Below are positions 13,088 to 46,893 of a stretch of DNA of 47,092 nt, one piece after another; position 1 is the stretch's first letter, and each line of letters opens with the position of its first letter. Location: assembly GCA_005116835.1 (NCBI GenBank), contig SWDM01000015.1:1-47092 (forward strand). The letters run 5' to 3'. The DNA is from Nitrospira sp. (GTDB lineage Bacteria; Nitrospirota; Nitrospiria; Nitrospirales; Nitrospiraceae). A program made the position numbers and the translations under genes. Under the pieces are notes generated by a model, which saw only the letters and a program-made list of their open reading frames with translations, searched no databases and was not told the origin of the DNA.

Positions 13088-13812
13088 TGGAGCGAGAGTA
13101 TCATGCCGCGCAGTCGTCGTTTCTCATGGTTGGATTGTCCCTCCAGCTGGTGATCGGGTCCGGCCAAGACAAAGTAAACTGCGGATCCACATTATTGGGC
13201 TGGAAGGAGCGGGCCTGGTTGATTTGCGAATGGCCCTTTCATTTTGGGCAAGCCGTACCCTGTGAAGCGGGCACTCGTTGCCTCATTCGGTATTTGGTGG
13301 ATGGCAAGCTCATTGGCTACGAAAGCGAAGTCCGTACTACTCAAACGACTCCGGTCCCACTCCTCTATCTTGCATTTCCTCAGGCCGTGGAAGAAATCCA
13401 CCTTCGTAAGCAGGTGCGCGTCTCCAGCAACGAGCCGCTGCTACTGAGACAGGTTGATGGGCAAGGATCGGTGCGTGTCGATCCGAACGGAAATTCGACG
13501 ATGGGCGGCCTTGTGCAGGACCTCAGCGCGGCTGGTTGCCGAGTGGTGGTGCAGCAACTGCGCCCTAGCATGCATCAGGGCTCCACGGTCCAGCTGGAAT
13601 TCGAGTTGATCGGAATCGGGCATGTGAGCAATCTCACCGGTGTGATCATGAACGTGGCGGAACAGGGAAATGCGAAATCCCTCGGCATCGAGTTTCGTTT
13701 CAATGGGAAAGAGTACATCGAGTATCGTGGATGGGGAGGGACGGTACAGAAGGCCATTGAGTATGCGGTGCTGCAAAAGCAGCATGTGCCGGGCGTGGCG
13801 CCCGCTGCGTGA
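13084..13812 (+). CDS. PilZ domain protein, YcgR-like flagellar brake
   Basis: A 242-residue protein. The N-terminal half (to about residue 100) resembles a YcgR-N/PilZN beta domain (VNCGSTLLGWKERAWLICEWP, then GTRCLIRY). The PilZ domain follows, with both c-di-GMP motifs: RKQVR at 108-112 and DLSAAG at 146-151. YcgR proteins bind c-di-GMP and slow the flagellar motor, which suits this locus. It is translationally coupled to the HD-GYP gene. The stop codon lies inside the first word (GCGTGAAGCG) of a repeat. The family fit is clear; brake activity is inferred. Confidence 0.85.
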   Translation: MMEREYHAAQSSFLMVGLSLQLVIGSGQDKVNCGSTLLGWKERAWLICEWPFHFGQAVPCEAGTRCLIRYLVDGKLIGYESEVRTTQTTPVPLLYLAFPQAVEEIHLRKQVRVSSNEPLLLRQVDGQGSVRVDPNGNSTMGGLVQDLSAAGCRVVVQQLRPSMHQGSTVQLEFELIGIGHVSNLTGVIMNVAEQGNAKSLGIEFRFNGKEYIEYRGWGGTVQKAIEYAVLQKQHVPGVAPAA

Positions 13813-14001
13813 AGCGTCGTTCGTGAAGCGTGAAGTGCGGGGAGTGGGCGTGAGTCGTGACCCTGGCACGTGGCTCTGAGTGTTGAATCCTGAGTTTCGG
13901 GAACTTCGGATCTCGAATCGTCGTCCATCCCGTCTTTCTCGCATGTCGTGACGTTCTTATCCGTCGCTAACCCAGAACTCAGAACTCAGAACTTCCTCAC
14001 C
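13808..14001. repeat. Family B words followed by a family A element
   Basis: 13808-13840 has GCGTGAAGCGTCGTTCGTGAAG starting at the PilZ stop codon. 13876-14001 is a family A element in reverse orientation (core GGGAACTTCGGATCTCGAAT, then TTCTTATCCGTC; right arm AACTCAGAACTCAGAACTTC). The rest of this 443 bp gap holds two small hairpins and a sigma-28 promoter. Confidence 0.75.
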
Positions 14002-20992: not shown

Positions 20993-21050
20993 GGCGTGAA
21001 GCGTATCTCGTGAAGCGTGAAGCGCTCGGACCAGGGAACGAACGACGGTC
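20993..21050. repeat. Partial family B repeat after the radical-SAM gene
   Basis: GCGTGAAGCGTATCTCGTGAAGC with a short inverted AACGAACGACG tail. It lies between the radical-SAM stop and the ribosome site of the NeuB-like gene. Confidence 0.65.
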
Positions 21051-28156: not shown

Positions 28157-28298
28157 GCGTGAAACGTCGTTCGTGAAGCGTATCTCGTGAAGCGTGAGAC
28201 ATGCGGGAAAGACATAAAGCGTCCGAATCCGGAACTGAAAACGCTTCACGCTTCACGAACGACGCTTCACTCACCGGAGACGCTTCACGTTTCACGAC
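28157..28298. repeat. Family B element overlapping the start of the sialidase-like gene
   Basis: Left words GCGTGAAACGTCGTTCGTGAAG start 1 bp after the Maf stop; core GCGTCCGAATCCGGAAC at about 28219-28235; right words TTCACGCTTCACGAACGACG and TTCACGTTTCACG. The downstream half is read in frame as the first 33 or so residues of the next protein. Confidence 0.85.
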
Positions 28299-33600: not shown

Positions 33601-35922
33601 ATGGGTATCACCTCGTCGGGACTATCCTCCGGGATCAATTTCGAGCAACTGATTCAGCAGGTTCAAGACTCTCAGCGCCGTCCCGTCGTGCTCTTGCAGG
33701 CCAGGCAGGCGGCCTACCAGAAAGAAATCAGCGCAGTGCTGAGCGTCAGCACAAAACTCTCCACGCTGCTGGCCGTGGCCAGCTCAGTCAATAATCCAGC
33801 AAATTTCAATGTCAATACCGTGTCGGTTGGAAAGACCACAGCGGGCGCCACGCTCCTGTCGGCGACAGCCAATAGCACGGCGGGGAAGGGGAGCTATGCC
33901 GTTTCAATTAAGCAGCTGGCCCAAGCCGGCAAGTTCGCAGCGAATGGATTTGTCGATCAGAATACGTCCGCTGTGGCGAGCACCGACGGGACATTCAAGT
34001 TCAAAGTCGGCAATGCGGGGACAGAATACAGCGTTGCGGTATCTGCCGGCACGACATTGCAGGCGCTGCGGGATGGGATCAATGCGACGGCCGGCAGTGT
34101 CACCGCGACGATCATCAATGACGGGACTGGGTCCAATCCCTATCGTCTGGTGCTTGCCACCAACGAAAACGGCGCATCGAATAGCATCACGATCACGAAC
34201 AACGACACGACATTGGATTTCACGAACAAGAAGGTCGAGGCAGCCTATGCCTTTACCGGAAATAGTTTTACCGGCACGATTTCGTCGAATGCGGGCAACA
34301 ATTATACCGGCTCGACGAACAAGACCTTTCTGATTCAGGCCGTGACCGGAGGGGCGCCGGGAGTTGCTGCCTACAAGTATTCCATCGACGGAGGCGTGAC
34401 CTATTTAGGCTATGGGGGCGCGGCCTATAATGCGTCAGCCGGAGCTGCAACGTCTGGCGCCGGCATTGTGGCAGCCAACGCTGCGACCGCGATCGACGGC
34501 AGCGGTGCCACCAACGAAGGCGTGACGGTCGATTTCGGAGCGACCGGAACCTTGGTTGCAGGAGACAAGTTTTCTGTGGATGTGTTCGCGCCCACCCTCC
34601 AAGCCGGCCAGGACGCCGTTGTGGTCGTGGACGGCACCACCTATACCAAATCTTCCAACACCGTGACGGACATCATTCAAGGCGTGACCTTGAATCTGCT
34701 GCAAGCGGATACCGCAAACGGTCTGATTTTGTCGGTCTCGTCGAATGCCTCAGGCGCTACGGAGAAGATCAAGAATTTTGTGTCGGCCTATAACGAGTTC
34801 AACACGTTTCTCAATGAACAACTCAATTTCAATGCCAACAGCAGTCAGGCCAGCGCCTTGCTCGGAGATCCGACCCTGCGCGCGATTCAAAAGAAATTGA
34901 AGGATATCGTCAGTGGCCAGATTCCCGGTCTCAACACTGGGAAGGCCAATCTGTCTCAGATCGGTATTACGTCGAACAGCAAGACCGGTGTGCTCACGGT
35001 CGATGAAGGGACGTTGTCCTCAGCCATCAGTTCCGACCCAGAGGGAGTACGGAGATTGTTTCTCGGGATTGGCACGCCTAGCAACAGTGCCGTGACCTTC
35101 GTTGGCCTGAGCGCCACGACGTCAGCCGGACGCTACGGGCTCAACATCACAACGGCGCCTCAGAAGGCCCTGCTCGGAGGAGCATCGAATGTGGCCTTTC
35201 AGGATCTCTCCACGACGGGATTGACGCTCGCCGAAACGCTGAGTTTTTCCTATAGCAGTGATTACACCGCCACGACTCCAACGACGACATCTGTCAGCGT
35301 CACGCTCACAGCGGGCCAGAGAATCAACGACATCGTCAGCGCGGTGAACAGCGCTTTTGCGACCCAGAAAGTCGGTCTATCCGCGTCCAACGACAGTGGA
35401 CGGCTTAAAATTACCTCGAAGGATTATGGCGCAAATGTCCGTTTCACAGTGGTCTCTACCCAGGCCGGTACGACGCAAACCGGTATCGGCTCGGTCGGGC
35501 TCACGGCGCAGGGGGCCGATATCGCAGGTACGATCAACGACCATTCGGCAACCGGCAAGGGCAATGTGCTGACCAGTAATTCAGGATTTGTGGAAAATGG
35601 TTTGGCCATCAGCACCGAAAGCGCGTCGTCCGGGCTGTTCGGCACCGTTGCCGTGACACGGGGCGTCGGAGACCAGCTCGTGTCCTCTTTGGCTGCCTAC
35701 ACCGATCCGACCGTCGGTATCCTGACGGCAAAATCGAAAGGACTGCAAGGCACCGTGGATCGGCTCAAGAAGGATGTCGAGAAGTTCAATGCCCGTATTG
35801 AACAAGAAGGAGAGCGGTTCCGCTCACAACTTGTCCGGTTGGAATCGCTGCTCGGTAAGTTCCAATCGACGAGCAATTTCGTGACGAACCAGCTCGCGAA
35901 CCTGCCAACATTCGGGAAATGA
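33601..35922 (+). CDS. fliD: Flagellar hook-associated protein 2, filament cap (FliD)
   Basis: A 773-residue FliD, longer than the usual 450-670. The N-terminus ITSSGLSSGINFEQLIQQV is diagnostic. The middle has flagellin-IN-type modules (TLQALRDGINATAGSVTATIINDGTG; QRINDIVSAVNSAFATQKVGLSASND). The C-terminal helical half reads KLKDIVSGQIPGL, then GVLTVDEGTLSSAI, and ends VDRLKKDVEKFNARIEQEGERFRSQLVRLESLLGKFQS. FliD forms the cap under which flagellin folds. It is followed by fliS after 35 bp. The expanded middle matches the enlarged FlgK and FlgL. Confidence 0.95.
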   Translation: MGITSSGLSSGINFEQLIQQVQDSQRRPVVLLQARQAAYQKEISAVLSVSTKLSTLLAVASSVNNPANFNVNTVSVGKTTAGATLLSATANSTAGKGSYAVSIKQLAQAGKFAANGFVDQNTSAVASTDGTFKFKVGNAGTEYSVAVSAGTTLQALRDGINATAGSVTATIINDGTGSNPYRLVLATNENGASNSITITNNDTTLDFTNKKVEAAYAFTGNSFTGTISSNAGNNYTGSTNKTFLIQAVTGGAPGVAAYKYSIDGGVTYLGYGGAAYNASAGAATSGAGIVAANAATAIDGSGATNEGVTVDFGATGTLVAGDKFSVDVFAPTLQAGQDAVVVVDGTTYTKSSNTVTDIIQGVTLNLLQADTANGLILSVSSNASGATEKIKNFVSAYNEFNTFLNEQLNFNANSSQASALLGDPTLRAIQKKLKDIVSGQIPGLNTGKANLSQIGITSNSKTGVLTVDEGTLSSAISSDPEGVRRLFLGIGTPSNSAVTFVGLSATTSAGRYGLNITTAPQKALLGGASNVAFQDLSTTGLTLAETLSFSYSSDYTATTPTTTSVSVTLTAGQRINDIVSAVNSAFATQKVGLSASNDSGRLKITSKDYGANVRFTVVSTQAGTTQTGIGSVGLTAQGADIAGTINDHSATGKGNVLTSNSGFVENGLAISTESASSGLFGTVAVTRGVGDQLVSSLAAYTDPTVGILTAKSKGLQGTVDRLKKDVEKFNARIEQEGERFRSQLVRLESLLGKFQSTSNFVTNQLANLPTFGK

Positions 35923-35957
35923 TCTCAATCGTTTGAAGCTCTGAGGGAGGATCAACT

Positions 35958-36449
35958 GTGACCGTCGCGAACAACCCGAATGCGATCGCGGCCTATTTGG
36001 CCGGCAATGTGACGCAAGCCGATCCGGCGCAGCTCATCGTCTTGCTGTATGAGGGCGCGATTTATCGGATCGGCCAGGCCGTACAGGAGATGGAGAAGCA
36101 GAATGCATTGGCGTCCGGTATTGCCTTGTATCGAGCCCTGGCCATCATCGGCGAGCTGCGCAAGTCTCTCAATCTCGAGGCAGGGGGTGAGATCGCACGT
36201 AACCTGGATAGGCTCTATCTCCACATGCATGAGGAGCTGGTCAAGGGACATTTGGCGAAACAAGCCCAGCCGTTGGAGCGGGTCCGTACCCTCTTGACCG
36301 ATCTGAACAGCTCCTGGAGGCAGGTGGCCTCTCAAGTGAAGACGTTGTTGGATGCCAGGACCGACCTGTTGCCTCCGTCCGCGATACGGGTAGGTCTCGT
36401 TTCATACCAGCAGCCGGAGGCGGCTCCGCGTCTCGCTCTCAAGGCATGA
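35958..36449 (+). CDS. fliS: Flagellin export chaperone FliS
   Basis: A 163-residue FliS. AIAAYLAGNVTQADPAQLIVLLYEGAIYRIGQAVQEM at about 9-45 and the helices LYRALAIIGELRKSLNLEAGGEIARNLDRLYLHMHEEL match the family. It keeps flagellin unfolded in the cytoplasm. GTG start with GGGAGGA upstream. The C-terminal 30 residues are a family-atypical tail. It is transcribed with fliD. Confidence 0.93.
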   Translation: MTVANNPNAIAAYLAGNVTQADPAQLIVLLYEGAIYRIGQAVQEMEKQNALASGIALYRALAIIGELRKSLNLEAGGEIARNLDRLYLHMHEELVKGHLAKQAQPLERVRTLLTDLNSSWRQVASQVKTLLDARTDLLPPSAIRVGLVSYQQPEAAPRLALKA

Positions 36450-36471
36450 CAGGTTAGACGTGAAACGGCAT

Positions 36472-36586
36472 TGGGAATGATGAATGATGAATTGGGAATG
36501 TTGAATGGTCTGAGTCGGACTCGATCTGATAATTTCCGAACATTCACCATTCACCATTCAAAATTAAACATTTAACATTCGACAGA
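36472..36586. repeat. Family D inverted repeat (TGAATGG words)
   Basis: GGGAATGATGAATGATGAAT, TGTTGAATGG, a unique core GTCTGAGTCGGACTCGATC, then inverted ACATTCACCATTCACCATTC and AACATTTAACATTCG. The second copy is at 46638-46722. Confidence 0.8.
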
Positions 36587-36620
36587 TCACGGCTGACGAA
36601 GAAATAGGATGAGGCCTACG

Positions 36621-37007
36621 ATGGTGTCGTTACAGCAGCTCGAAGAACAGTACCGGGCGATCATTGCGCAGATGGACCAGAGTGAAGCGGCCATTCTCAG
36701 CCAAGATCTGGACAGGCTTGAAGCCTTAGTGCAGGGGATCGATCAGGCCTTGACAAGGCTGGCACAGATTTCTACTCATCTCGCAGGGCGGCCGCTGTTG
36801 CCGGGCGAAGAGAAGGCCTGGGAAAGTCTTGCCGACGCCATGCGGCAGGCCTTGGCTCGCGTCGAGAAAAATCGCGCAGAGATTCAACTGTGGATCGGCC
36901 AGACGCAGGACATCTTGTCGCAGATGAGCAGGGGTGGGCGTGCCGTGAACGGGTACTCGACGACCTGTATGCCTGATGGCGCAGAATTTCTCAACGCGCG
37001 GGGCTGA
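36621..37007 (+). CDS. FliT-like coiled-coil protein (putative export chaperone)
   Basis: About 128 residues, strongly helical (QLEEQYRAIIAQMDQSEAAILSQDLDRLEALVQGIDQALTRL). This is the size, coiled-coil content and position (fliD-fliS-next) of FliT/FlgN-type chaperones. The tail GGRAVNGYS resembles the end of FlgN/FliT-like proteins. I prefer ATG 36621 because GATGAGG lies about 7 bases upstream; ATG 36609 is possible. Sequence identity to known FliT is not obvious, so the role is inferred. Confidence 0.6.
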   Translation: MVSLQQLEEQYRAIIAQMDQSEAAILSQDLDRLEALVQGIDQALTRLAQISTHLAGRPLLPGEEKAWESLADAMRQALARVEKNRAEIQLWIGQTQDILSQMSRGGRAVNGYSTTCMPDGAEFLNARG

Positions 37008-37064
37008 GTGCCGGGGGAGGCGATGCGCCTACCTTCAGTCTTCAGCTTCGGAAAGAGGACGATC

Positions 37065-37676
37065 ATGCAATCACCCATGCACAGCAGCGCGAACGCATCC
37101 GATGAACGACGGGAATGGATTCGGATCGACGATCGTGTGTTATTAGAATATCAGCTCATTGCAGACCAGGAAGGCGTGCCCATGTCCGGTATGCTTCCGG
37201 CAAGCAACCAGGCCATTACGGACGCCATTCAGAAACCAGCGGCCGATTACTTTACGCAGCAGGGTGAAACGTTGGCGCATTCTCCGCTGCTTCCATGGAT
37301 GATGAAGGTGGACTGGCTGTTGGAAGTGATCGTCAAGACGCTCGCAGACATGCATCCAGGTGGTGTCCCGATTGCGCAGGTTGCCGATGTGCAACTCAGC
37401 GGCGGCGGGATCAGCTTCATGTCTCCACGGCACTTTGCCGTCGGCGATAAGTTGCGGCTGAAAGTGGTGTTGCCGCCGTTTACGCCGATCGAAACAACGG
37501 CGCAAGTGATCCGATCGATGCCGGCCAAAGATCGCACAGGCCACGAGATCGCGACCGAATTTGTCGGGCTCTCTCCCAACGATCAGGAAGCGCTCATTCG
37601 CCACGTGCTTCAGACCCAGGCAGAGCGGCTGAGGGCCAGGCGCGGACACGAAGCGCATTCTGCGCGTGAAGCGTGA
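37065..37676 (+). CDS. PilZ domain protein
   Basis: About 203 residues. The N-terminal RREWIRIDDRVLLEYQ carries the RxxxR c-di-GMP motif, unusually near the N-terminus. A middle helical region at about 60-105 follows, then a beta barrel with ADVQLSGGGISFMSPRHFAVGDKLRLKVVLPP. The second motif reads QLSGGG rather than D/N-x-S-x-x-G, so binding may be altered. ATG 37065 has AGAGG about 6 bases upstream. The C-terminal AREA and stop codon lie in a family B repeat word. It is probably a motility c-di-GMP receptor. Confidence 0.75.
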   Translation: MQSPMHSSANASDERREWIRIDDRVLLEYQLIADQEGVPMSGMLPASNQAITDAIQKPAADYFTQQGETLAHSPLLPWMMKVDWLLEVIVKTLADMHPGGVPIAQVADVQLSGGGISFMSPRHFAVGDKLRLKVVLPPFTPIETTAQVIRSMPAKDRTGHEIATEFVGLSPNDQEALIRHVLQTQAERLRARRGHEAHSAREA

Positions 37677-37855
37677 AGCGTATCTCGTTCGTACGTTTCA
37701 CGTTCCATGTTTCTAGTTTCAAGTTTGGAAGCGGTGTCCTGACAACATGAAACCTGAAACTAGAAACCAGCAACGTCTCTTCCGCATCTCGGCTGACGCT
37801 TCACGCTTCACGAACGACGCTTCACATTTTGCGCTTCACGTTTCACGGTTGTCTC
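37668..37855. repeat. Family C element nested inside a family B element
   Basis: Left B arm at 37668-37705 (GCGTGAAGCGTGAAGCG, then CGTTTCACG). Family C at 37706-37779 (GTTTCTAGTTTCAAGTTTGG, core GTGTCCTGACAAC, then GAAACCTGAAACTAGAAACC). Right B arm at about 37790-37855 (GACGCTTCACGCTTCACGAA). Nesting shows that the C element arrived after the B element. The rest of the gap is the sigma-28 site. Confidence 0.75.
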
Positions 37856-37862
37856 GCACAGC

Positions 37863-37890
37863 TTAAGTTCTGTTCCTGCCGGACCGATAC
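37863..37890 (+). promoter_or_regulatory. Candidate sigma-28 promoter for the HTH gene
   Basis: TTAAGTTC at 37863-37870, a 12 bp spacer, ACCGATAC at 37883-37890. The -10 is only 9 bp before ATG 37900, so the mRNA would be leaderless or nearly so, or translation begins downstream at GTG 37936. Confidence 0.5.
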
Positions 37891-37899
37891 TGCATTCGT

Positions 37900-38130
37900 A
37901 TGAATAACAGTATTACAACATCGAACCAGGCAATCGTGGGCGGTGTCGCATCAACGGATCACGAGATTTTAACCGTCATAGACGTGGCTCAGTTTCTCCG
38001 GGTGCCGAAGTCGACGGTCTATAAACTCGCACGGCAGGGGGAGTTGCCTGCTTCCAAAATCGGGAAGCACTGGCGCTTTCTTCGCCACGATCTCAACCAG
38101 TGGATGCATAGCCGTTCCTCGCAGGGATAA
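37900..38130 (+). CDS. Excisionase/MerR-like helix-turn-helix protein
   Basis: A 76-residue protein. Residues about 22-72 match the excisionase-type HTH (ILTVIDVAQFLRVPKSTVYKLARQGELPASKIGKHWRFLRHDLNQWM). Such proteins bind DNA, often as small regulators rather than true excisionases. No integrase is nearby, so a regulatory role in motility is more likely than phage excision. The start lacks a ribosome site. A sigma-28-like site lies just upstream and cheY follows by 200 bp. Confidence 0.82.
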   Translation: MNNSITTSNQAIVGGVASTDHEILTVIDVAQFLRVPKSTVYKLARQGELPASKIGKHWRFLRHDLNQWMHSRSSQG

Positions 38131-38332
38131 CGCGCCGGACGCCGAGTTGACATCGTGTGGCGGCACATCGATCCGCTCGACGGTGTGCGTGCGAACGTCC
38201 GTGCCATGTCATCTCCGGATGCCAGGGGTCTGATCTACGATCGGGAAGCAAACACGCGCGTCACCGAATACGCAGTGACATGGCGTGTCGTCAATTTACT
38301 GTCGATTCTTTCGTTAGAAGGAGGGCCGTCTT

Positions 38333-38713
38333 ATGCCTGCCGATCCCGCTATGAAGATCCTTGTCGTGGACGATATGTCGACGATGCGAAGGATCGTCAA
38401 GAACATTCTGAAGCAACTGGGCTTTACCAACGTCGAGGAAGCCGAAAATGGGCAGGAGGGCCTGACGAAACTCAAGGAGGGGGGATTCGGCCTTGTCGTG
38501 TCGGATTGGAACATGCCGGTGATGACCGGCATCGATATGTTGCGGGCCATTCGCGCGGATGAGGCGATCAAGACACTTCCCGTGCTCATGGTGACGGCGG
38601 AAGCGCAGCAGGCAAATTTGATAGAGGCAGTCAAGGCCGGCGTCAGCAATTACATCGTCAAGCCGTTTACGGCTGAAACGCTGCAAGAGAAAATCACTAA
38701 GATATTCCCGTAA
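38333..38713 (+). CDS. cheY: Chemotaxis response regulator CheY
   Basis: A 126-residue single receiver domain. The acid pocket DD is at about 13-14, phosphorylated D58 lies in VVSDWNMP, conserved T88 in MVTAEA, and K110 in IVKPFT. The N-x-P and A-E-N-G segments match true CheY proteins ([22 protein letters not shown]). Phospho-CheY binds the motor switch. AAGGAGGG precedes ATG by 8 bases. cheZ starts 7 bp after the stop. Confidence 0.95.
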
Positions 38714-38720
38714 GGAGCTC

Positions 38721-39449
38721 ATGATGCCTCAGACGAACGGTCACCTCTATTCCGAGCTCGGCGAGCTTGCCCGGTATCTCGATACGACGTTGCGAAAACT
38801 GGATGACGCAGGTGCGCCAATTGCGACCATGTCGGATCAACTCCCGCAGGCTGCCACACATTTGGAAGGCCTCACGAAATTGACCGAAGAGGGGACGCAC
38901 GAAGTGATGCGTCTGACGGAGGAGATTCAGGATAGCCATGCCCTCATTGCCGGCATGCTCAGCAAGGTTGCCGCGCTCGTGGTCAAAGGCCAGAACTTTC
39001 CCTGTGTTGCCTGCTTGCTCCGCGAATCCCAGCAGCTTGTGGCCCAAGACGATAAACATCTGATCGACAGCCGGGAGCGACTTACCGGAGCGCTGACCCA
39101 AGCAACCGAAACCCTCACCAAAGGCCAAATCGGGGATTGTATAGCCTGCGTACTGACTGAATCCAGACAACGCTTGGTGCAAGACGACAAGCGGTTGATC
39201 GAGATCATGACCTCCTTGTCGTTCCAGGATCTCGTGGCGCAGCGGGTCAAGAAACTGACGACGATTGTCCACGACGTCGAACGGAAGTTGCTGGAACTCG
39301 TCGTCGTGTTCGGGATCAAGCACGAAGGAGCCGCACCGGAGGTCAAGTCCGACGTCACCGACATGCTGAAAGAATTGAATGCATCGAATTCAAACGCGAT
39401 GAAGCAGGATTTGGTGGACGATATTCTTGGGAAATTCGGATTCAGTTGA
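38721..39449 (+). CDS. cheZ: CheY-P phosphatase CheZ with duplicated CxxC hairpin
   Basis: A 242-residue CheZ. The catalytic helix SLSFQDLVAQRVKKL has D170 and Q174, equivalent to D143 and Q147 of E. coli CheZ. The C-terminus VDDILGKFGFS matches the CheY-binding peptide. Between them an internal duplication is seen: CVACLLRESQQLVAQDDKHLID at about 95-116 and CIACVLTESRQRLVQDDKRLIE at about 140-161. Each has a CxxC pair (C95/C98 and C140/C143), which is not a feature of classical CheZ. This may be a metal or redox site, or only a repeated helix. It follows cheY directly. Confidence 0.9.
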   Translation: MMPQTNGHLYSELGELARYLDTTLRKLDDAGAPIATMSDQLPQAATHLEGLTKLTEEGTHEVMRLTEEIQDSHALIAGMLSKVAALVVKGQNFPCVACLLRESQQLVAQDDKHLIDSRERLTGALTQATETLTKGQIGDCIACVLTESRQRLVQDDKRLIEIMTSLSFQDLVAQRVKKLTTIVHDVERKLLELVVVFGIKHEGAAPEVKSDVTDMLKELNASNSNAMKQDLVDDILGKFGFS

Positions 39450-39465
39450 AACGACAGAAGCACGT

Positions 39466-39555
39466 CGTTTGTAAAACGTGAAGCGTCGTTCGTGAAGCGT
39501 TTGTCGTTCCGGATTCTGACGCTTCACGCTTCACGAGATACGTTTCACGAATGAC
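39466..39555. repeat. Family B element between cheZ and motA
   Basis: GTGAAGCGTCGTTCGTGAAG, core GTTCCGGATTCTGACGC, then TTCACGCTTCACGAGATACG and TTTCACGAATGACG. A full-length copy with clear arms and core. Confidence 0.85.
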
Positions 39556-39626
39556 GTCCTTCTGAGACTGGCTGCCGTTTCCGCAGCGTGAAGATCGGAT
39601 CACCTTGACTCGTAGGATAAGGCACT

Positions 39627-40397
39627 GTGGACATTGCGACTATCGTAGGAATCGCCCTTGCCCTCGGGGCTATTATCGGAGGCCAGATCCTCGAAGGCGG
39701 ACATCTCGGTTCTATTATGCAGCTCACCGCCTTCATCATCGTGATGGGCGGAACGATCGGGGCGGTCTGTGTCCAAAACTCACTGTCTGTCGTCATCAGG
39801 TCGGTGAGCATCTTGGGCCTGGTTTTCGGGAGCAAGAACCACGATATCGGCGGAACGATCAAGACGATCGTCGATTTGGCCAATGTATCCAGAAAACAGG
39901 GTCTGCTGGCGCTGGAAGGAAAGCTCAAAGACATCCACGATCCGTTTTTTTCCAAGGGTGTCCAGTTGATCGTGGACGGCACAGACCCCAAAGTCGTCCA
40001 CGAGATTCTCGAGATCGAAGTGGAACATCATGAGGAGTATGGCATGCTCGCGGCAAAAGTCTGGGAGGCTGCGGGCGGGTATGCGCCGACGGTCGGGATT
40101 ATCGGCGCCGTGCTCGGGTTGATCCACGTGATGGAAAATTTGGCCGATCCGTCAAAGCTCGGCGGCGGCATTGCGGTGGCGTTTGTCGCGACCGTCTACG
40201 GTGTCGGCGCCGCGAACCTTTTTTTTCTTCCGTTCGCCAATAAAATCAAATTCAAGTTGAAAGAAGAATCCGCTGCGCGCAACGTCATTGTCATGGGGCT
40301 CGTCGGTTTGGCGCAGGGTGAAAACCCTCGGTTGCTGCAGGAGAAACTCGAAAGTTTTCTGCCCGCGCACGAACGGACGAAAGAAGCGAAAAAATAG
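39627..40397 (+). CDS. motA: Flagellar motor stator protein MotA
   Basis: A 256-residue inner membrane protein with four transmembrane segments (about 1-20, 30-50, 150-170, 182-205). The MotA signature is GGYAPTVGIIGAVLGLIHVMENL at about 149-171 and the cytoplasmic loop contacts the rotor. The PomA/MotC-like N-terminus DIATIVGIALALGAIIGG suggests a stator that may use either H+ or Na+. Start is GTG 39627 with AAGG upstream. MotB follows after a 126 bp gap made of octamer repeats. Confidence 0.94.
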   Translation: MDIATIVGIALALGAIIGGQILEGGHLGSIMQLTAFIIVMGGTIGAVCVQNSLSVVIRSVSILGLVFGSKNHDIGGTIKTIVDLANVSRKQGLLALEGKLKDIHDPFFSKGVQLIVDGTDPKVVHEILEIEVEHHEEYGMLAAKVWEAAGGYAPTVGIIGAVLGLIHVMENLADPSKLGGGIAVAFVATVYGVGAANLFFLPFANKIKFKLKEESAARNVIVMGLVGLAQGENPRLLQEKLESFLPAHERTKEAKK

Positions 40398-40519
40398 GGG
40401 TACAGGGGATAAGGGGTACAGGGGATAAGGGGATAAGGGGTACAGGGAGAGCAATCTCAGAGCCGTTATCCCCTTGCTTCCTGAACCCCTGAACCCCTGA
40501 ACCCCTGAACCCCTGCTAC
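40396..40519. repeat. Family E octamer inverted repeat between motA and motB
   Basis: Left arm GGGGTACA/GGGGATAA octamers (at least six), a short core GAGAGCAATCTCAGAGCCG, and a right arm of CCCCTGAA octamers (four). It fills the whole gap and ends 5 bp before the motB ATG, leaving no visible ribosome site for motB. Confidence 0.85.
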
Positions 40520-40523
40520 AGAA

Positions 40524-41384
40524 ATGTCAAAGAAGAAACACGAAGAACACGAAAATCACGAGCGCTGGCTGGTGTCCTATGCGGACTTTATCACCCTGCT
40601 CTTTGCGTTCTTCGTCGTCATGTACTCGATCTCTTCCGTGAATGAGGGACGATTTCGCACCGTGAGTGACTCCATCAAAGCGGCTCTGCATCCTATCGTC
40701 AGTCCGCCGGCTACTCCGGTGCCGTTTCAAGTCGGCAACAACAAGCCGACGAGCATCGTGCCCAACGTGATTCCATCGCGGGATATGGCGGTAAGACGGC
40801 TGCAGCAGGCCTTGAAGGCGCTCCAGGCCTCCGTGCAGCCTGAGACGGTTCAGGTCACCGAGCCGGGAGACAACACGATCGTCCTGTCGCTTCCGGAGTT
40901 GGTGTTGTTCGAAAGCGGGGCAGCGACGCTTCGTGCCGAGGCCATGCCATTTTTGCAAGCCTTGGCCGAGGCGCTGGTAGAACTCGATCGCCAGATCAAG
41001 GTGCAGGGCCATACGGACAATGTGCCGATGCGGTCGGCGCAGTTTCCATCCAATTGGGAACTTTCTGCGATTCGAGCCGTGATGGTCGTACGGGCCTTAG
41101 GCGAACTGTACGGGGTGCCAGCTCAGAACCTGTCGGCCGTCGGGTTTGCCGATTCTCGGCCTGTGACCGATAACCAGACGCCGGAAAATCGGGCAAAAAA
41201 TCGTCGAGTAGAAATCGTGGTGCTGGAGCGTAAACGGACGCTGAACCCTCCCGATCAAGGAGAAGAACGGACGGCTCTGCAACTGTTCGCCGACCCTCCC
41301 GTGAGTACCAGCGGAAGCGGCGGCGTGCCGCCGAAGGATTCACTTGCTACGCCTGGGACACCCTCTATTCTCCCTCCACCGTGA
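40524..41384 (+). CDS. motB: Flagellar motor stator protein MotB
   Basis: A 286-residue protein. One transmembrane helix at about 17-38 (SYADFITLLFAFFVVMYSISS) with the ion-binding Asp at residue 21. A plug/linker follows, then the OmpA-like peptidoglycan-binding domain at about 125-235 (VQGHTDNVPMRSAQFPSNWELSAIRAVMVV, then ENRAKNRRVEIVV). The C-terminus is Pro/Ser-rich. It anchors MotA and lets ions pass. There is no ribosome site visible at ATG 40524; the octamer repeat ends just before it. Confidence 0.95.
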   Translation: MSKKKHEEHENHERWLVSYADFITLLFAFFVVMYSISSVNEGRFRTVSDSIKAALHPIVSPPATPVPFQVGNNKPTSIVPNVIPSRDMAVRRLQQALKALQASVQPETVQVTEPGDNTIVLSLPELVLFESGAATLRAEAMPFLQALAEALVELDRQIKVQGHTDNVPMRSAQFPSNWELSAIRAVMVVRALGELYGVPAQNLSAVGFADSRPVTDNQTPENRAKNRRVEIVVLERKRTLNPPDQGEERTALQLFADPPVSTSGSGGVPPKDSLATPGTPSILPPP

Positions 41385-41414
41385 AGCCTCACCGAACAGA
41401 ATGATGACGGATGC

Positions 41415-41442
41415 TCAAGTACTGACAAAGAATAACCGATAA
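41415..41442 (+). promoter_or_regulatory. Sigma-28 (FliA) promoter for the STAS gene cluster
   Basis: TCAAGTAC at 41415-41422, a 12 bp spacer, ACCGATAA at 41435-41442. It lies about 72 bp before the STAS gene. Confidence 0.7.
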
Positions 41443-41514
41443 AAGGCGCAGAGCCAACCAGGCTGAGCCTAATGGAGCAGATGACGGGAACAGCGTCAGG
41501 AGCGAGTTACAGAA

Positions 41515-41778
41515 ATGGACATACAATCAAGACAGTATGAGCCGGTGGGCGAATTGACGATCTTCGAAGCCGCCTCGTTGAAAGAGTCGCTGATCCAGTT
41601 GATTTCGAACGATGGGCTGGTCTGCATGGATCTGGGGAAAGTCACGCGTGTGGACACGTCGGCAATCCAGCTGATGTGGGCGGCTCGTAAACTGGGCCGC
41701 ATCCTGGTTGCCGGGATTCCGAAAGAGATAGAGACAAAGTTGACTCAACTCGGGTTCGCCGAACCGCTCAGCGAGTAA
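41515..41778 (+). CDS. STAS domain protein (anti-sigma antagonist-like)
   Basis: An 87-residue STAS domain. The core VCMDLGKVTRVDTSAIQLMWAARK at about 42-65 has the conserved D-T/S-A pattern where the phospho-Ser usually lies. Similar small STAS proteins occur in chemotaxis operons, where their partner is unknown. It follows a sigma-28 promoter, precedes a CheZ-motif protein, and is likely co-transcribed with the later che genes. Confidence 0.85.
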   Translation: MDIQSRQYEPVGELTIFEAASLKESLIQLISNDGLVCMDLGKVTRVDTSAIQLMWAARKLGRILVAGIPKEIETKLTQLGFAEPLSE

Positions 41779-41788
41779 CTGCGCGAGA

Positions 41789-41935
41789 GGGGTGAGGAAG
41801 TTTTGAGTTCTGAGTTTTGAGTTCTGAGTTAGAGGTGGATAAGAAAGCCGAGACGGGGAGAGTTTGAGGTCCGAAGTTCACGGAATTAAAAAACTCAGAA
41901 CTCAGAACTCAGAACTTCGAACTGCGCCTGTTTCA
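41789..41935. repeat. Family A element after the STAS gene
   Basis: Arms TTTTGAGTTCTGAG and CTCAGAACTCAGAACTCAG around the core AGAGGTGGATAAGAAAGCCG, then GGTCCGAAGTTCACGG. It is the same orientation as the copy at 6931, with the flank TGCGCCTGTTTC. Confidence 0.82.
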
Positions 41936-41977
41936 CTCACGACCTTGCAGGTGGACAGAAGGATGTACGCCTGAACC

Positions 41978-42520
41978 ATGCGAGATACCCAAGGCCTTGG
42001 AGGGCCCACGACAGGCGCCGGCGAGGCGAGCGAACTCGCAAGCCTGAAAGAACAGCAGCAGGCATGGGAAGCATTTGCCGCCTGCGCCATATCCGTGATT
42101 CCGGTCTTGAAGAAACAAATGGAAGCCGTGACCCAACAGACGGAACGGGCGGCGATGGATCTAATGGTGCATATCAGCGCGTTGACATTGCCGAGTACGG
42201 GGTCAAGACCCGCGGATACATCGGCCAATCTGTCTAAGATCGTGATGGCTATGCAATTCCAGGACATCACTCAGCAGAAGTTGGAACATGTCGCTCAGGC
42301 ATTGGATCAATGGCACAAGCATCTCCAAGCCTTGTTAAAGGGGCCGCAGGACGAAAGCGCCAAGCAGGAAATCGCGACGCTGCAACGGCTGGAGGAGAGC
42401 TATACCATGGAAGAAGAACGGCGGCTCCATGCGGCCGCCCTTGCCCCGGATTATCAAGAACCAGTGCCGATCGAAATGGAAGAGACAGAATCGGAGTCGG
42501 ATTCAGTCACGCTGTTTTAA
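41978..42520 (+). CDS. CheZ-motif protein, putative second CheY phosphatase
   Basis: A 180-residue helical protein. The helix at about 86-107 reads IVMAMQFQDITQQKLEHVAQAL. It contains FQDxxxQ (D96, Q100), the CheZ catalytic spacing. The C-terminal tail is acidic and ends SVTLF. Proteins of this type sit with chemotaxis genes. A likely role is dephosphorylating one of the two CheY proteins encoded here. The start lacks a close ribosome site; AGAAGGATG is about 15 bases upstream. A family B repeat follows the stop directly. Confidence 0.72.
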   Translation: MRDTQGLGGPTTGAGEASELASLKEQQQAWEAFAACAISVIPVLKKQMEAVTQQTERAAMDLMVHISALTLPSTGSRPADTSANLSKIVMAMQFQDITQQKLEHVAQALDQWHKHLQALLKGPQDESAKQEIATLQRLEESYTMEEERRLHAAALAPDYQEPVPIEMEETESESDSVTLF

Positions 42521-42618
42521 GCGTGAAGCGTCTCTGGCGCGTGAAACGCGAAGCGTCAGGCAAGATGAGGAAGACGCGTGAGGCGTCCGAATCCTGAAAC
42601 GGGCGACGCTTCACGGTC
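42521..42618. repeat. Family B element after the CheZ-motif gene
   Basis: GCGTGAAGCGTCTCTGGCGC, GTGAAACGCGAAGCG, core GCGTCCGAATCCTGAAAC, then GACGCTTCACG. It begins at the stop codon of the preceding gene. Confidence 0.82.
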
Positions 42619-42636
42619 TTAGAGTTGGAGGAAGCG

Positions 42637-43008
42637 ATGAGTAAGACAGCACTAGTCGTGGACGATTCGCCGACCATGCGACAAATGGTGGCCTTGACCC
42701 TCACCAATGCCGGATTCGACGTGTTGCAAGCCGAAGATGGCAAAGATGCCGTGAATAAAGTCACCGGTGGGCCAAAAATGGACATCGTCGTTACGGATCT
42801 GAATATGCCCGAGATGGATGGCATCAGCTTGATCAAGGAGCTCCGTAAGATGGCATCGTTTAAGTTTACGCCAATTCTGATGCTCACCACAGAATCGGCG
42901 GCTGAGAAGAAGCAAGCAGGCAAAGAGGCGGGCGCGACAGGATGGATCGTCAAGCCGTTCAACCCGGAGGTCTTGCTGAAGATCATCGCCAAGGTGTTGC
43001 CGGCATAG
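42637..43008 (+). CDS. Chemotaxis response regulator CheY (second copy)
   Basis: A 123-residue receiver from ATG 42637 (GGAGGAAGCG upstream). D54 lies in VVTDLNMPEMDG, with Asp pair VVDDS at 8-10, T in LTTESA and K in IVKPFN. It sits immediately before cheA, so it is likely the direct phosphorylation partner. It differs clearly from the CheY at 38333, being closer to the CheY proteins paired with CheA in Nitrospirota/deltaproteobacterial clusters; that comparison is from memory. The Asp and switch residues are all present. Confidence 0.93.
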   Translation: MSKTALVVDDSPTMRQMVALTLTNAGFDVLQAEDGKDAVNKVTGGPKMDIVVTDLNMPEMDGISLIKELRKMASFKFTPILMLTTESAAEKKQAGKEAGATGWIVKPFNPEVLLKIIAKVLPA

Positions 43009-43012
43009 ATTC

Positions 43013-43104
43013 CGTGAAACGTAAGCCGTCAGACGTAGTGGGTATCGGAAGTCGGCTCCTTGCGTCACATCTTACGTCTCACGTTTCACCTTTCACGTCT
43101 CACG
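43013..43104. repeat. Diverged family B element before cheA
   Basis: GTGAAACGTAAGCCGTCAGACG, then TCTTACGTCTCACGTTTCAC and CTTTCACGTCTCACG. It ends just before the cheA ribosome site. Confidence 0.7.
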
Positions 43105-43111
43105 AGGACCT

Positions 43112-45352
43112 ATGAGCGACGATTTCTCTCAATTTCAAGACGCATTTTTCGAAGAAGCCGGCGATCACTTGGCCGTCGTCGAAGAGGGGCTGCTGGCACT
43201 CGAACAGCATCCGGAAGACCTCGATTTGCTCAATAAGATTTTCCGCTCGGCCCATTCGATCAAAGGGACGAGTGGCATGTTTGGGTTCAACGCAGTCGCG
43301 CAGTTTACCCATAAGATGGAGACCCTGCTCGATCTCCTTCGCAACGGGCAGAAAGTGGTGACGCCACAAGTTGCCGATCTCCTGCTCAAATCGACGGACT
43401 GTTTGAAGACGCTCGTCGACGCAGCCAAGACCGGCTCGCCCGTCGACGACGAAACCGTCCAACGGCTCACGATCGAACTGGCCACGGCGAGTGCCTTGGG
43501 AGGCCAGCCGCCTGCTCAGGCAGCAAGTGGATCGAAGCAGGCATCTTCCCCCTTGACTCCGTCCTTGATCCCTGAACCCCTGCATCACTACACCATCGCC
43601 TGGACACCACCGGACTGGCTCTTTCAGCGAGGCCTTGACCCACTGCAAATCTTCAAAGAGCTGGCGAATCTCGGCACATTGTCCCAGGTCGCCGTCGATA
43701 CGACGAAATTGCCGGAGTTGGCTGCGATGGACCAGGAGAAATGTTATCTCTCCTGGTCCATGAGGCTGGAGACGGTGAAAGATCGAAAGGCCGTGGATGC
43801 GGTTTTTGAATTTGTTCGCGAGGATAGCGTGCTCGTCATCGAAGAATGTGAAGCGTTAAGCGTGAAGCGTGAAGCGTCAGAGTCAGGACAGGAGCGTGAA
43901 GCGTCCGAATCCGGAACGAAACACGCTTCACGCTTCACGAACGACGCTTCACGAGAGACGAGCGGCATGGATGGCGAGCCCAAACCCCTCGGCGAGCTGC
44001 TCGTGGAGAGCGGTGCCGTGTCTCGCGAGACATTGGATAAGGCGCTCTCGCAGCAAAAGCGGGTCGGTGAAATTCTTATCGAGCAGCATGCTGTCACCCC
44101 ACAACAAGTCGAACAGGCGCTCCAGAAACAAAAACAGCAGGAGTCCGTCGCCCAATCGAAGAAAACCGACACGGCCTCGATCCGCGTGGATACCGATAAG
44201 ATCGATAAGCTCATCAACCTCGTCGGTGAGCTGGTCATCACCCAATCGATGCTGAGCGACCTCGGAGCCCGCTTCGAGATGAGCCAGATATCGGTGTTGC
44301 TGGAACGGATGGCCCAGTTGGAACGGAACACGCGTGAAATTCAGGAACGGGTCATGAGCATCCGCATGCTGCCGATCGGCACAGCCTTCAGCCGGTTTCC
44401 GAGACTGGTTCGCGACCTTTCGGCCAAAGCGGGGAAGAAAATTCAACTGGTCCTCGCCGGCGAAGAGACCGAACTCGACAAAACCGTAATTGAATCCATC
44501 GGCGACCCCTTGACGCATCTCGTGCGAAACTCGGCCGATCACGGACTGGAGCCGCCGGAAGAACGTCTCGACAACAACAAGCCGGAACTCGGCACCATTC
44601 GGCTCAACGCCTTCCACGAAGGCGGCAACATCTGCATCACCGTCGAAGACGACGGGCGGGGCCTGAACCGGGACAAGATTCTGGCAAAAGCCATCAAACA
44701 AGGTTTGATAACGGAAAACGAAAAACTGTCCGACGACCAGATTTGGCCCTTAATCTTCAAGCCGGGATTCTCCACAGCGGAGAAGGTGACAGACGTTTCG
44801 GGGCGAGGTGTCGGCATGGACGTCGTGAAGCGGAACATCGAAGGGCTGGGCGGCACCGTCAAGATTAAGACGGCGCTGGGGAAAGGCACAATTTTTACGC
44901 TCAAACTCCCACTGACCTTGGCCATTATCGAAGGCATGACGGTCCGGGTCGGCAAAGACACCTATATCGTGCCGCTGTTGTCGATCCTGGAGTCCATCCA
45001 GCCGAAGGCCGGTGCGATCAAGACCGTCGTCGGCAAAGGTGAACTCATCAACGTGCGCAGCACCTATTTGCCCATGATGCGCCTGTACGATGTCTTTTCT
45101 TTGCAACCGGAATATACCGATCCCACCAAGGCCATTTTGCTGATTTTGGAGACGGAAGGGGAACGGGTTGCGGTGATGGTAGACGAAATCCTCGGGCAGC
45201 AGCAGGTCGTGATCAAAAGCATGGAGCAGAACTTCCGCAAAGTTGCGGGGGTTGCCGGCGCCACAATTCTGGGCGACGGGACAGTCGGCTTCATTCTGGA
45301 TGTCCGGGGATTGCTGGAAATCGCCCGCCAAGGGGCGCCGGTGGCGGCTTGA
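43112..45352 (+). CDS. cheA: Chemotaxis histidine kinase CheA
   Basis: A 746-residue CheA. P1 Hpt has H48 (FRSAHSIKGTSGMFGF). A P2-like domain is at about 158-245 (YTIAWTPPDWLFQRGLDPLQIFKELANLG). Residues 249-284 come from a DNA repeat. Residues about 292-342 form two short units (LGELLVESGAVSRETLDKAL; VGEILIEQHAVTPQQVEQAL) like the MshEN/GspE-N nucleotide-binding motif. P3 follows from about 357. P4 ATPase has NSADHGLE and DDGRGL, and GRGVGMDVVKRNI. P5 ends at about 740. Kinase residues are intact. It phosphorylates CheY and couples to receptors through CheW. Confidence 0.95.
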   Translation: MSDDFSQFQDAFFEEAGDHLAVVEEGLLALEQHPEDLDLLNKIFRSAHSIKGTSGMFGFNAVAQFTHKMETLLDLLRNGQKVVTPQVADLLLKSTDCLKTLVDAAKTGSPVDDETVQRLTIELATASALGGQPPAQAASGSKQASSPLTPSLIPEPLHHYTIAWTPPDWLFQRGLDPLQIFKELANLGTLSQVAVDTTKLPELAAMDQEKCYLSWSMRLETVKDRKAVDAVFEFVREDSVLVIEECEALSVKREASESGQEREASESGTKHASRFTNDASRETSGMDGEPKPLGELLVESGAVSRETLDKALSQQKRVGEILIEQHAVTPQQVEQALQKQKQQESVAQSKKTDTASIRVDTDKIDKLINLVGELVITQSMLSDLGARFEMSQISVLLERMAQLERNTREIQERVMSIRMLPIGTAFSRFPRLVRDLSAKAGKKIQLVLAGEETELDKTVIESIGDPLTHLVRNSADHGLEPPEERLDNNKPELGTIRLNAFHEGGNICITVEDDGRGLNRDKILAKAIKQGLITENEKLSDDQIWPLIFKPGFSTAEKVTDVSGRGVGMDVVKRNIEGLGGTVKIKTALGKGTIFTLKLPLTLAIIEGMTVRVGKDTYIVPLLSILESIQPKAGAIKTVVGKGELINVRSTYLPMMRLYDVFSLQPEYTDPTKAILLILETEGERVAVMVDEILGQQQVVIKSMEQNFRKVAGVAGATILGDGTVGFILDVRGLLEIARQGAPVAA
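43856..43963. repeat. Family B element inserted in frame in cheA
   Basis: AGCGTGAAGCGTGAAGCGTC, core GCGTCCGAATCCGGAACG, then GCTTCACGCTTCACGAACGA. Encodes CheA residues 249-284 ([29 protein letters not shown]). It lies in the linker between P2 and the MshEN-like units. A shorter stretch at about 43545-43590 (CCCTTGACTCC, CCCTGAACCCCTG) also resembles the family E octamers and encodes part of the P1-P2 linker. Confidence 0.87.
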
Positions 45353-45357
45353 CCGAA

Positions 45358-45530
45358 GATCGTGAAGCGTGAAACGTTAGGCGTGAGGCGCAAGATGAGG
45401 AAATCAGACGGCGTGAAGCGTATCTCGGCTAAGAGTTTCAAGTTGCGAGTTTCAAGTTTCAAGTTTTCTAAGCCAGTTCCCTTATAACGTGAAACCTGGA
45501 ACTAGAAACTAGAAACTCGGCTTGAAGTGT
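45358..45530. repeat. Family B words followed by a family C element
   Basis: 45358-45428 has GTGAAGCGTGAAACG and GTGAAGCGTATCTCGG. 45437-45521 is family C (GAGTTTCAAGTTGCGAGTTT, core AAGCCAGTTCCCTTATAAC, then AACTAGAAACTAGAAACTC). This again places C beside B, as at 37668-37855. Confidence 0.78.
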
Positions 45531-46226: not shown

Positions 46227-46242
46227 CCGAATGGACGACGCT

Positions 46243-46563
46243 TCACGCTTTCAGGAGCGCGCGCAGTTCTCGAAATTCTCGATCCATGTATTCGTGGTCT
46301 TCGGCATGCCGGCGATCGAGATGCATCTGAAATCCCTCGGCGACCGATTGGATATCGTGGCGAAGTCCTTCAACCATCACACCGGTATGACGCTTGATGT
46401 CCTCAGCGGTTGTTTCCGTGGACTGGCGCAGCGCAGTCATGTCCTGGCGGAGTTCCAGCGCCGTTGTTTCCGTGGACTGGCGCAGCGCAGCCATGTCCTG
46501 GCGCAGGCCTTCGGTGACCGCTGTCACGATCCGTTCAACTTGTGCAAGGGATTCGGAATCCAT
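46243..46563 (-). CDS. Small coiled-coil protein with internal repeat
   Basis: About 106 residues from ATG 46563 (AGAGG upstream). It is entirely helical and charged. An 18-residue unit is repeated in tandem (LRQDMAALRQSTETTA; LRQDMTALRQSTETTA), also visible at DNA level. The C-terminal HLDRRHAEDHEYMDREFRELRALL is again coiled coil. I do not recognise its family; proteins of this look are sometimes annotated with phage tail or chromosome-associated coiled coils. No membrane segment. It is downstream of the repeat-rich cheW leader on the opposite strand. Confidence 0.65.
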   Translation of the reverse strand: MDSESLAQVERIVTAVTEGLRQDMAALRQSTETTALELRQDMTALRQSTETTAEDIKRHTGVMVEGLRHDIQSVAEGFQMHLDRRHAEDHEYMDREFRELRALLKA

Positions 46564-46637
46564 AGACGTCCTCTCGTGCGTAGGCACCAAGTTTAGGGAT
46601 TCTGACGGGGGAAGTCAACGCGCGGGGCATCAAGATT

Positions 46638-46722
46638 TGGGAATGTTGAATGGTGAATGGTTGGAATCGGAAGAGGCTCCGAACATTCATCATTCAAAAC
46701 TCAACATTTTACATTCGATAGA
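46638..46722. repeat. Family D inverted repeat, second copy
   Basis: GGGAATGTTGAATGGTGAAT, core AATCGGAAGAGGCTCCG, then ACATTCATCATTCAAAACTC. It lies 14 bp before the cheW sigma-28 site. The rest of the 310 bp gap has the promoter and a family B partial repeat. Confidence 0.8.
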
Positions 46723-46735
46723 TGGCCGGTAGGTC

Positions 46736-46762
46736 TAAAGATCATGGTTGAACATCCGATAG
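46736..46762 (+). promoter_or_regulatory. Sigma-28 (FliA) promoter for cheW
   Basis: TAAAGATC at 46736-46743, an 11 bp spacer, TCCGATAG at 46755-46762. Spacing and -35 are near consensus. It gives a leader of about 130 nt with family B words (TTCACGCTTCACGAACGACG) before cheW. Confidence 0.7.
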
Positions 46763-46825
46763 GGCTCTTATGGGTTCAACAAGACAGATCGATTGGGATG
46801 TGAACAAGCATGGCATGACTCGTTT

Positions 46826-46893
46826 CGAGATCCGAACGACGGAATACGCTTCACGCTTCACGAACGACGCTCTTCGCACGATACTTCACGAAG
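46826..46893. repeat. Partial family B element before cheW
   Basis: AGATCCGAACGACGGAATACG, then GCTTCACGCTTCACGAACGA and ATACTTCACG. Only the core-like segment and right arm remain. Confidence 0.7.

Follow-up and report, generated by a model that had tools for sequence, protein, structure and literature searches.

A CheZ-family protein of Nitrospira with a tandemly duplicated hairpin tip and four conserved cysteines

CheZ is a dimeric four-helix bundle formed from two helical hairpins. The window analysed here, a stretch of 47,092 nucleotides of Nitrospira sp. DNA (contig SWDM01000015.1), encodes a CheZ in which a segment containing a CxxC motif is present twice, and it raises the question of what four cysteines are doing in a chemotaxis phosphatase. 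The original prediction, made from the sequence of the window, was that they form a metal, cluster or redox site that could tie phosphatase activity to redox state. We address in turn the identity of the protein, the nature of the duplication, the conservation and placement of the cysteines, and the inheritance of the gene.

A CheZ with a duplicated hairpin tip

The cheZ gene has cheY directly upstream and motA and motB downstream, and its ATG start codon is preceded by GGAG. Its features are as follows.

38721..39449, + strand: cheZ with duplicated hairpin tip, 242 aa
38931..39065, + strand: repeat copy 1, residues 71-115, hairpin tip
39003..39014, + strand: CxxC motif 1 (CVAC, residues 95-98), after loop 1, at a predicted helix N-terminus
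39066..39200, + strand: repeat copy 2, residues 116-160, hairpin tip
39138..39149, + strand: CxxC motif 2 (CIAC, residues 140-143), after loop 2, at a predicted helix N-terminus
39228..39242, + strand: catalytic D-x3-Q (D170, Q174)
39405..39446, + strand: C-terminal CheY-binding peptide QDLVDDILGKFGFS, residues 229-242

The product matches the Pfam CheZ profile (PF04344) with 70.7 bits (E-value 2e-19), above the gathering cut-off of 30.7 bits; its score of 44.1 bits to the equivalog model NF008368 is below the cut-off of 257, and it therefore lies outside that model's named subgroup but not outside CheZ. In a phmmer alignment to E. coli CheZ (1kmi_Z), D170 and Q174 fall on E. coli D143 and Q147, and the C-terminus KQDLVDDILGKFGF lies opposite SQDQVDDLLDSLGF, so that both the catalytic D-x3-Q and the C-terminal CheY-binding peptide of the original prediction are borne out; D170 and Q174 are invariant in all four species that have the CxxC form. 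The protein shares with E. coli CheZ (1kmi) and with the ordinary Nitrospira CheZ proteins (~200 aa) a helical hairpin (predicted here at low confidence in a monomer model), the D-x3-Q pair, a linker, the C-terminal CheY-binding peptide and a neighbouring cheY gene, but differs from them in the tandem duplication of 45 residues at the hairpin tip and in its two CxxC motifs. A genome-wide search with this CheZ as query gives a single match (3.94 Mb genome, 99.3% complete). It is best read from these alignments as a normal CheY-P phosphatase of the CheZ family, in which catalysis would proceed as in any CheZ.

There is a second CheZ-like open reading frame in the window (41978-42520, 180 aa) that contains FQDITQQ with a D-x3-Q and matches Pfam CheZ with an E-value of 4e-5, below the cut-off. 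It sits between a STAS protein gene and a second cheY, an order conserved in the genus, and is possibly a second phosphatase without the usual CheY-binding tail.

Comparison of the 242-residue CheZ with itself reveals a match at an offset of 45 residues (best ungapped, 50 residues) with a score of 103, whereas 300 shuffled versions score 14.4 on average and at most 37; the head-to-tail duplication is thus far above chance. The two copies share 44% aa and 58% nt identity. They had been described as tandem copies of a helix, and although the duplication is confirmed, the unit is not a single helix but a 45-residue helix-loop-helix that starts ~24 residues before each CxxC and runs from the last part of the descending helix through a loop (KGQxxxC) into the beginning of the ascending helix, which together make up the distal hairpin tip. 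Likewise, the E-S-(x)-Q-x-L-x-x-Q-D-D-K segment reported to follow each CxxC holds as the consensus E-S-x-Q-x3-Q-D-D-K; the leucine is not part of it, as its register differs from one copy to the other. In L004, the most distant of the relatives, this stretch of copy 1 has decayed (PATPAEK) and the CxxC is retained. The spacing between an EEGT-like motif and FQD is 112 residues in the four CxxC species versus 60-68 in ordinary CheZ proteins (with one regular-expression outlier of 94), consistent with a single 45-residue insertion, and sequence comparison with the relatives positions the insertion exactly at the hairpin tip.

Conservation and placement of the four cysteines

The only cysteines in the window CheZ are residues 95, 98, 140 and 143, giving one C-x-A-C in each repeat copy, the paired arrangement claimed at the outset. 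Loss of these residues in close relatives had been posed as the refuting observation; all four are kept in each of three relatives with 87, 80 and 73% identity to the window CheZ, and are thus invariant in four of four species. A metal, cluster or thiol-type site is therefore plausible.

This conservation is set within the fastest-evolving and least conserved part of the protein. Across the four species, 17/45 and 23/45 positions are invariant in the two copies (40/90 together), compared with 51/63 in the N-terminal and 58/78 in the C-terminal parts, and dN is higher in the repeats than elsewhere in CheZ. Just eight of the 45 repeat positions (S, G, K, G, C, A, C, L) are identical in all eight copies, and six of these spell K-G-x4-C-x-A-C-x-L. 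The probability that all four cysteines land on invariant repeat positions is ~0.036 by a naive estimate that ignores shared ancestry; coming from four related sequences, it is suggestive of constraint on the cysteines, and the small number of species and their shared ancestry weaken the argument. These figures bear on a neutral explanation, in which slippage generated a lineage-specific duplication and the cysteines hitchhike, conserved only by recent common ancestry. Confinement of the duplication to four species and the rapid evolution of the repeats relative to the rest of the protein fit such an origin, but the copies have diverged to 44% aa identity and yet 16 of 16 cysteines remain (four in each of four species), synonymous divergence between the species is high (dS 0.3 to above 1), and six of the eight all-copy invariant positions sit in the CxxC loop. 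We consider it quite unlikely.

Among 45 homologues without CxxC, the position of C140 is occupied mainly by T, A, S or D and that of C143 mainly by A, S, Q or E, whereas the position of A142 is mostly A, V, L or I and that of L145 mostly L, I, V or M. Because the homologues hold polar or small residues at the cysteine positions, the cysteines probably replace exposed rather than core residues, and plain core substitution is unlikely; the pattern would fit cysteines that point away from a helix which is otherwise conserved, and that serve there as ligands or thiols. Heme c attachment is ruled out, as no histidine follows either CxxC.

With four sequences admissible as input, the full-length AlphaFold model has a pLDDT of 53.5, too poor for use beyond secondary structure, and a tip-fragment model has a pLDDT of 70.5 and pTM of 0.53. 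Both predict, with low to moderate confidence, a helix, a loop with the first CxxC, a short helix, a turn, a second short helix, a loop with the second CxxC and a long helix, with helices starting at residues 93-94 and 138-139, so that each CxxC is placed at a predicted loop/helix junction of the tip. Judging from this topology, the up-down arrangement would put loops 1 and 2 at the same end, and the four cysteines could meet. Foldseek searches with the tip fragment match generic four-helix bundles only (best E 0.06), and the best VIA-align match (Z 14.1, 1.7 angstrom over 103 residues) is a designed helical protein; CheZ is absent among the fold matches listed, which excludes nothing.

The link of these cysteines to catalysis, as originally proposed, finds no support here. 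C143 and C140 are 27 and 30 residues from the catalytic D170, which along an unbroken connecting helix would be ~40-45 angstrom, and at 30 residues (~45 angstrom) a direct part for C140 in catalysis is unlikely. A thiol redox switch could act less directly, with reversible CxxC disulfides altering tip conformation and CheZ activity or placement, making tumbling redox-dependent. A CxxC at a predicted helix N-terminus has the geometry of many dithiols, the cysteines are conserved, and the placement of Azorhizobium caulinodans CheZ responds to hypoxia (PMC8563088), although this shows only that a member of the CheZ family can be an oxygen- or energy-dependent node. That effect depends on D165 and the C-terminus, and the paper names no cysteine (PMC8563088); the Azorhizobium bundle, moreover, does not exceed the E. 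coli one in length but falls short of it (PMC7750401). The distance of even the nearest CxxC from D170, a cytosol that is normally reducing, and a conserved che block containing only the usual che and mot genes further count against a switch, and we think it unlikely.

Distribution and inheritance of the CxxC form

A survey of 32 genomes of the genus finds a CheZ match in 20, four of which have the duplicated CxxC form: the window, a Nitrospira lenta MAG, and the MAGs JANYBU010000371 and JAPLLI010000150. The close relatives are placed in Nitrospira by GenBank-named loci. Among 116 distinct CheZ sequences from loci across Nitrospirota, only these four have any CxxC or the duplication, and the other 112 lack CxxC. 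When the insert by itself was used to search about 395 Nitrospirota genomes, it matched only the window and a locus in G389 (E 0.001), which looked like a CxxC relative but proved a false lead: it is not a CheZ, and the locus has no CheZ open reading frame; no relatives were found in the viral contigs searched. In other families of the phylum (L149-L178 and further loci), many cheZ genes are in open frames of ~400 aa, roughly double the normal length, and several show a Pfam match broken at the hairpin tip.

The neighbouring genes have contrasting histories.

38333..38713, + strand: cheY1, likely substrate of CheZ, co-inherited with the CxxC-cheZ (CheY1 tree: four CxxC species together, support 0.987)
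39627..40397, + strand: motA, immediately downstream of cheZ (gene order conserved in relatives)
43112..45352, + strand: cheA, with a history unlike that of cheZ (groups with CheA of G026, which has an ordinary CheZ, support 0.998)
7700-7802, 13808-13831, 20995-21018, 28172-28289, 37665-37812, 39477-39535, 42522-42615, 43861-43953, 45361-45421, 46238-46862: REP-like elements

In a tree of the CheZ core the CxxC forms are a single clade (support 1.0); a CheZ grouping of the window with the other CxxC species also has support of 0.999. In a strand-oriented tree of the ribosomal L2 region these species are scattered, with N. lenta sister to G026, JANYBU sister to G022 (both G026 and G022 having an ordinary CheZ) and JAPLLI in another clade; mis-binning could add to this discordance, as three of the four CxxC-form genomes are MAGs of 75-88% completeness. 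The window CheA is 73% and 55% identical to the CheAs of two other CxxC species (the 55% refers to a contig-truncated N-terminal part), and the window STAS and CheZ-like proteins have 43% and 36-37% identity to those of JANYBU and JAPLLI, versus 84-87% to those of G026. The CxxC-CheZ is thus found beside CheAs of different descent and is not co-inherited with one particular CheA, and because cheY-cheZ-motA and STAS-cheA have different relatives on one contig, the CxxC form and its cheY appear to have travelled as a unit. Judged from these trees and identities, recombination has probably transferred the CxxC cheZ along with cheY and motA/B, and cheA was not part of this transfer.

The flagellar and chemotaxis cluster (33601-45352) is itself mosaic: FliD and FliS are nearer to those of G009 and G012 (76-84%) than to those of G019 and G026 (32-36%), cheY1-cheZ tracks the CxxC clade, and STAS-cheA tracks G026. 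A dispersed REP-like element formed from CGTGAAGCGT and its inverted copy is also present, with 35 exact copies in the window versus 0.14 expected; of the doubled form CGTGAAGCGTGAAGCGT the genome has 42 copies, nine of them on this 47-kb contig, and a backwards control has none. One REP-like element lies between cheZ and motA, and another is in frame within cheA (43848-43953, CheA residues about 246-281), adding VKREASESG... to the linker. The G026 CheA linker has a related form of this insert, N. lenta and G005 have different filler at the same place (GLRGEERLSS / GLGVRGEE) and G007 a shorter one; the CheA linker thus seems to accept dispersed palindromes as coding sequence.

The descent of the CheAs also bears on a docking function. 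In E. coli the hairpin tip of CheZ binds CheA-short and brings CheZ to the receptor arrays (PMC7750401), and it is exactly this part of the protein that carries the insertion here; the duplicated tip could accordingly be a new surface for a polar or array partner, with the cysteines in the interface or stabilising it and having no metal or redox role. However, the CxxC-CheZ accompanies CheAs of different descent, and we regard this explanation as doubtful.

A proposed metal site at the tip

Our preferred reading, which we hold tentatively and at somewhat short of an even chance, is of a working CheZ with an in-frame duplicated tip whose four cysteines bind a structural zinc, in a stabilising or docking element. 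The tip would have gained a CxxC first, followed by in-frame tandem duplication of 45 codons, to give an extra helical hairpin: a long helix down, loop 1, a short helix, a turn, a short helix, loop 2 and the long catalytic helix. Both CxxC motifs would then be at the same distal end, where the four thiolates, rather than forming disulfides, could bind one structural metal ion per protomer (or one shared by the dimer), most likely zinc, the default in a cytosolic protein. Such a site would pin the extended tip, which may serve as a stabilising or docking element and perhaps as a partner surface, and leave catalysis unchanged, lower in the bundle.

In Pfam and NCBIfam searches, no family that describes a zinc hook or another metal site matches the window CheZ, and neither Rad50 nor its hook domain appears among the Pfam matches at E-values up to 1. 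The Rad50 zinc hook may nonetheless be a useful analogy for how the tip works: a conserved CxxC at the apex of the Rad50 antiparallel coiled coil chelates zinc (PMC6969161), and in the predicted CheZ tip the CxxC motifs would likewise sit in short loops at the far end of a long antiparallel pair of helices. In Rad50 there is one CxxC per chain and two chains are joined, whereas the window CheZ has two CxxC motifs within one chain, and the two are not homologous.

A further-reaching proposal, which we rate as very unlikely, is a thiol- or metal-gated CheZ: if the duplicated four-Cys tip were oxidised or lost its metal, the activity of the enzyme on CheY-P, or its placement, would change, and a nitrifier would thereby set its swimming bias according to the redox or metal state of its cytoplasm, acting at the phosphatase and not at a receptor. 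Among the results listed in literature searches on CheZ with CXXC, redox or zinc, no paper deals with a cysteine site in CheZ, and if the site binds a metal or senses redox it would be a chemotaxis input at the level of the phosphatase of a kind that we did not find described in the literature searched. In E. coli the tip of the CheZ hairpin is known to act in docking, but how it has evolved elsewhere has been little explored; the tip described here has been duplicated, has kept four cysteines and, it appears, has passed between Nitrospira lineages along with its own cheY.
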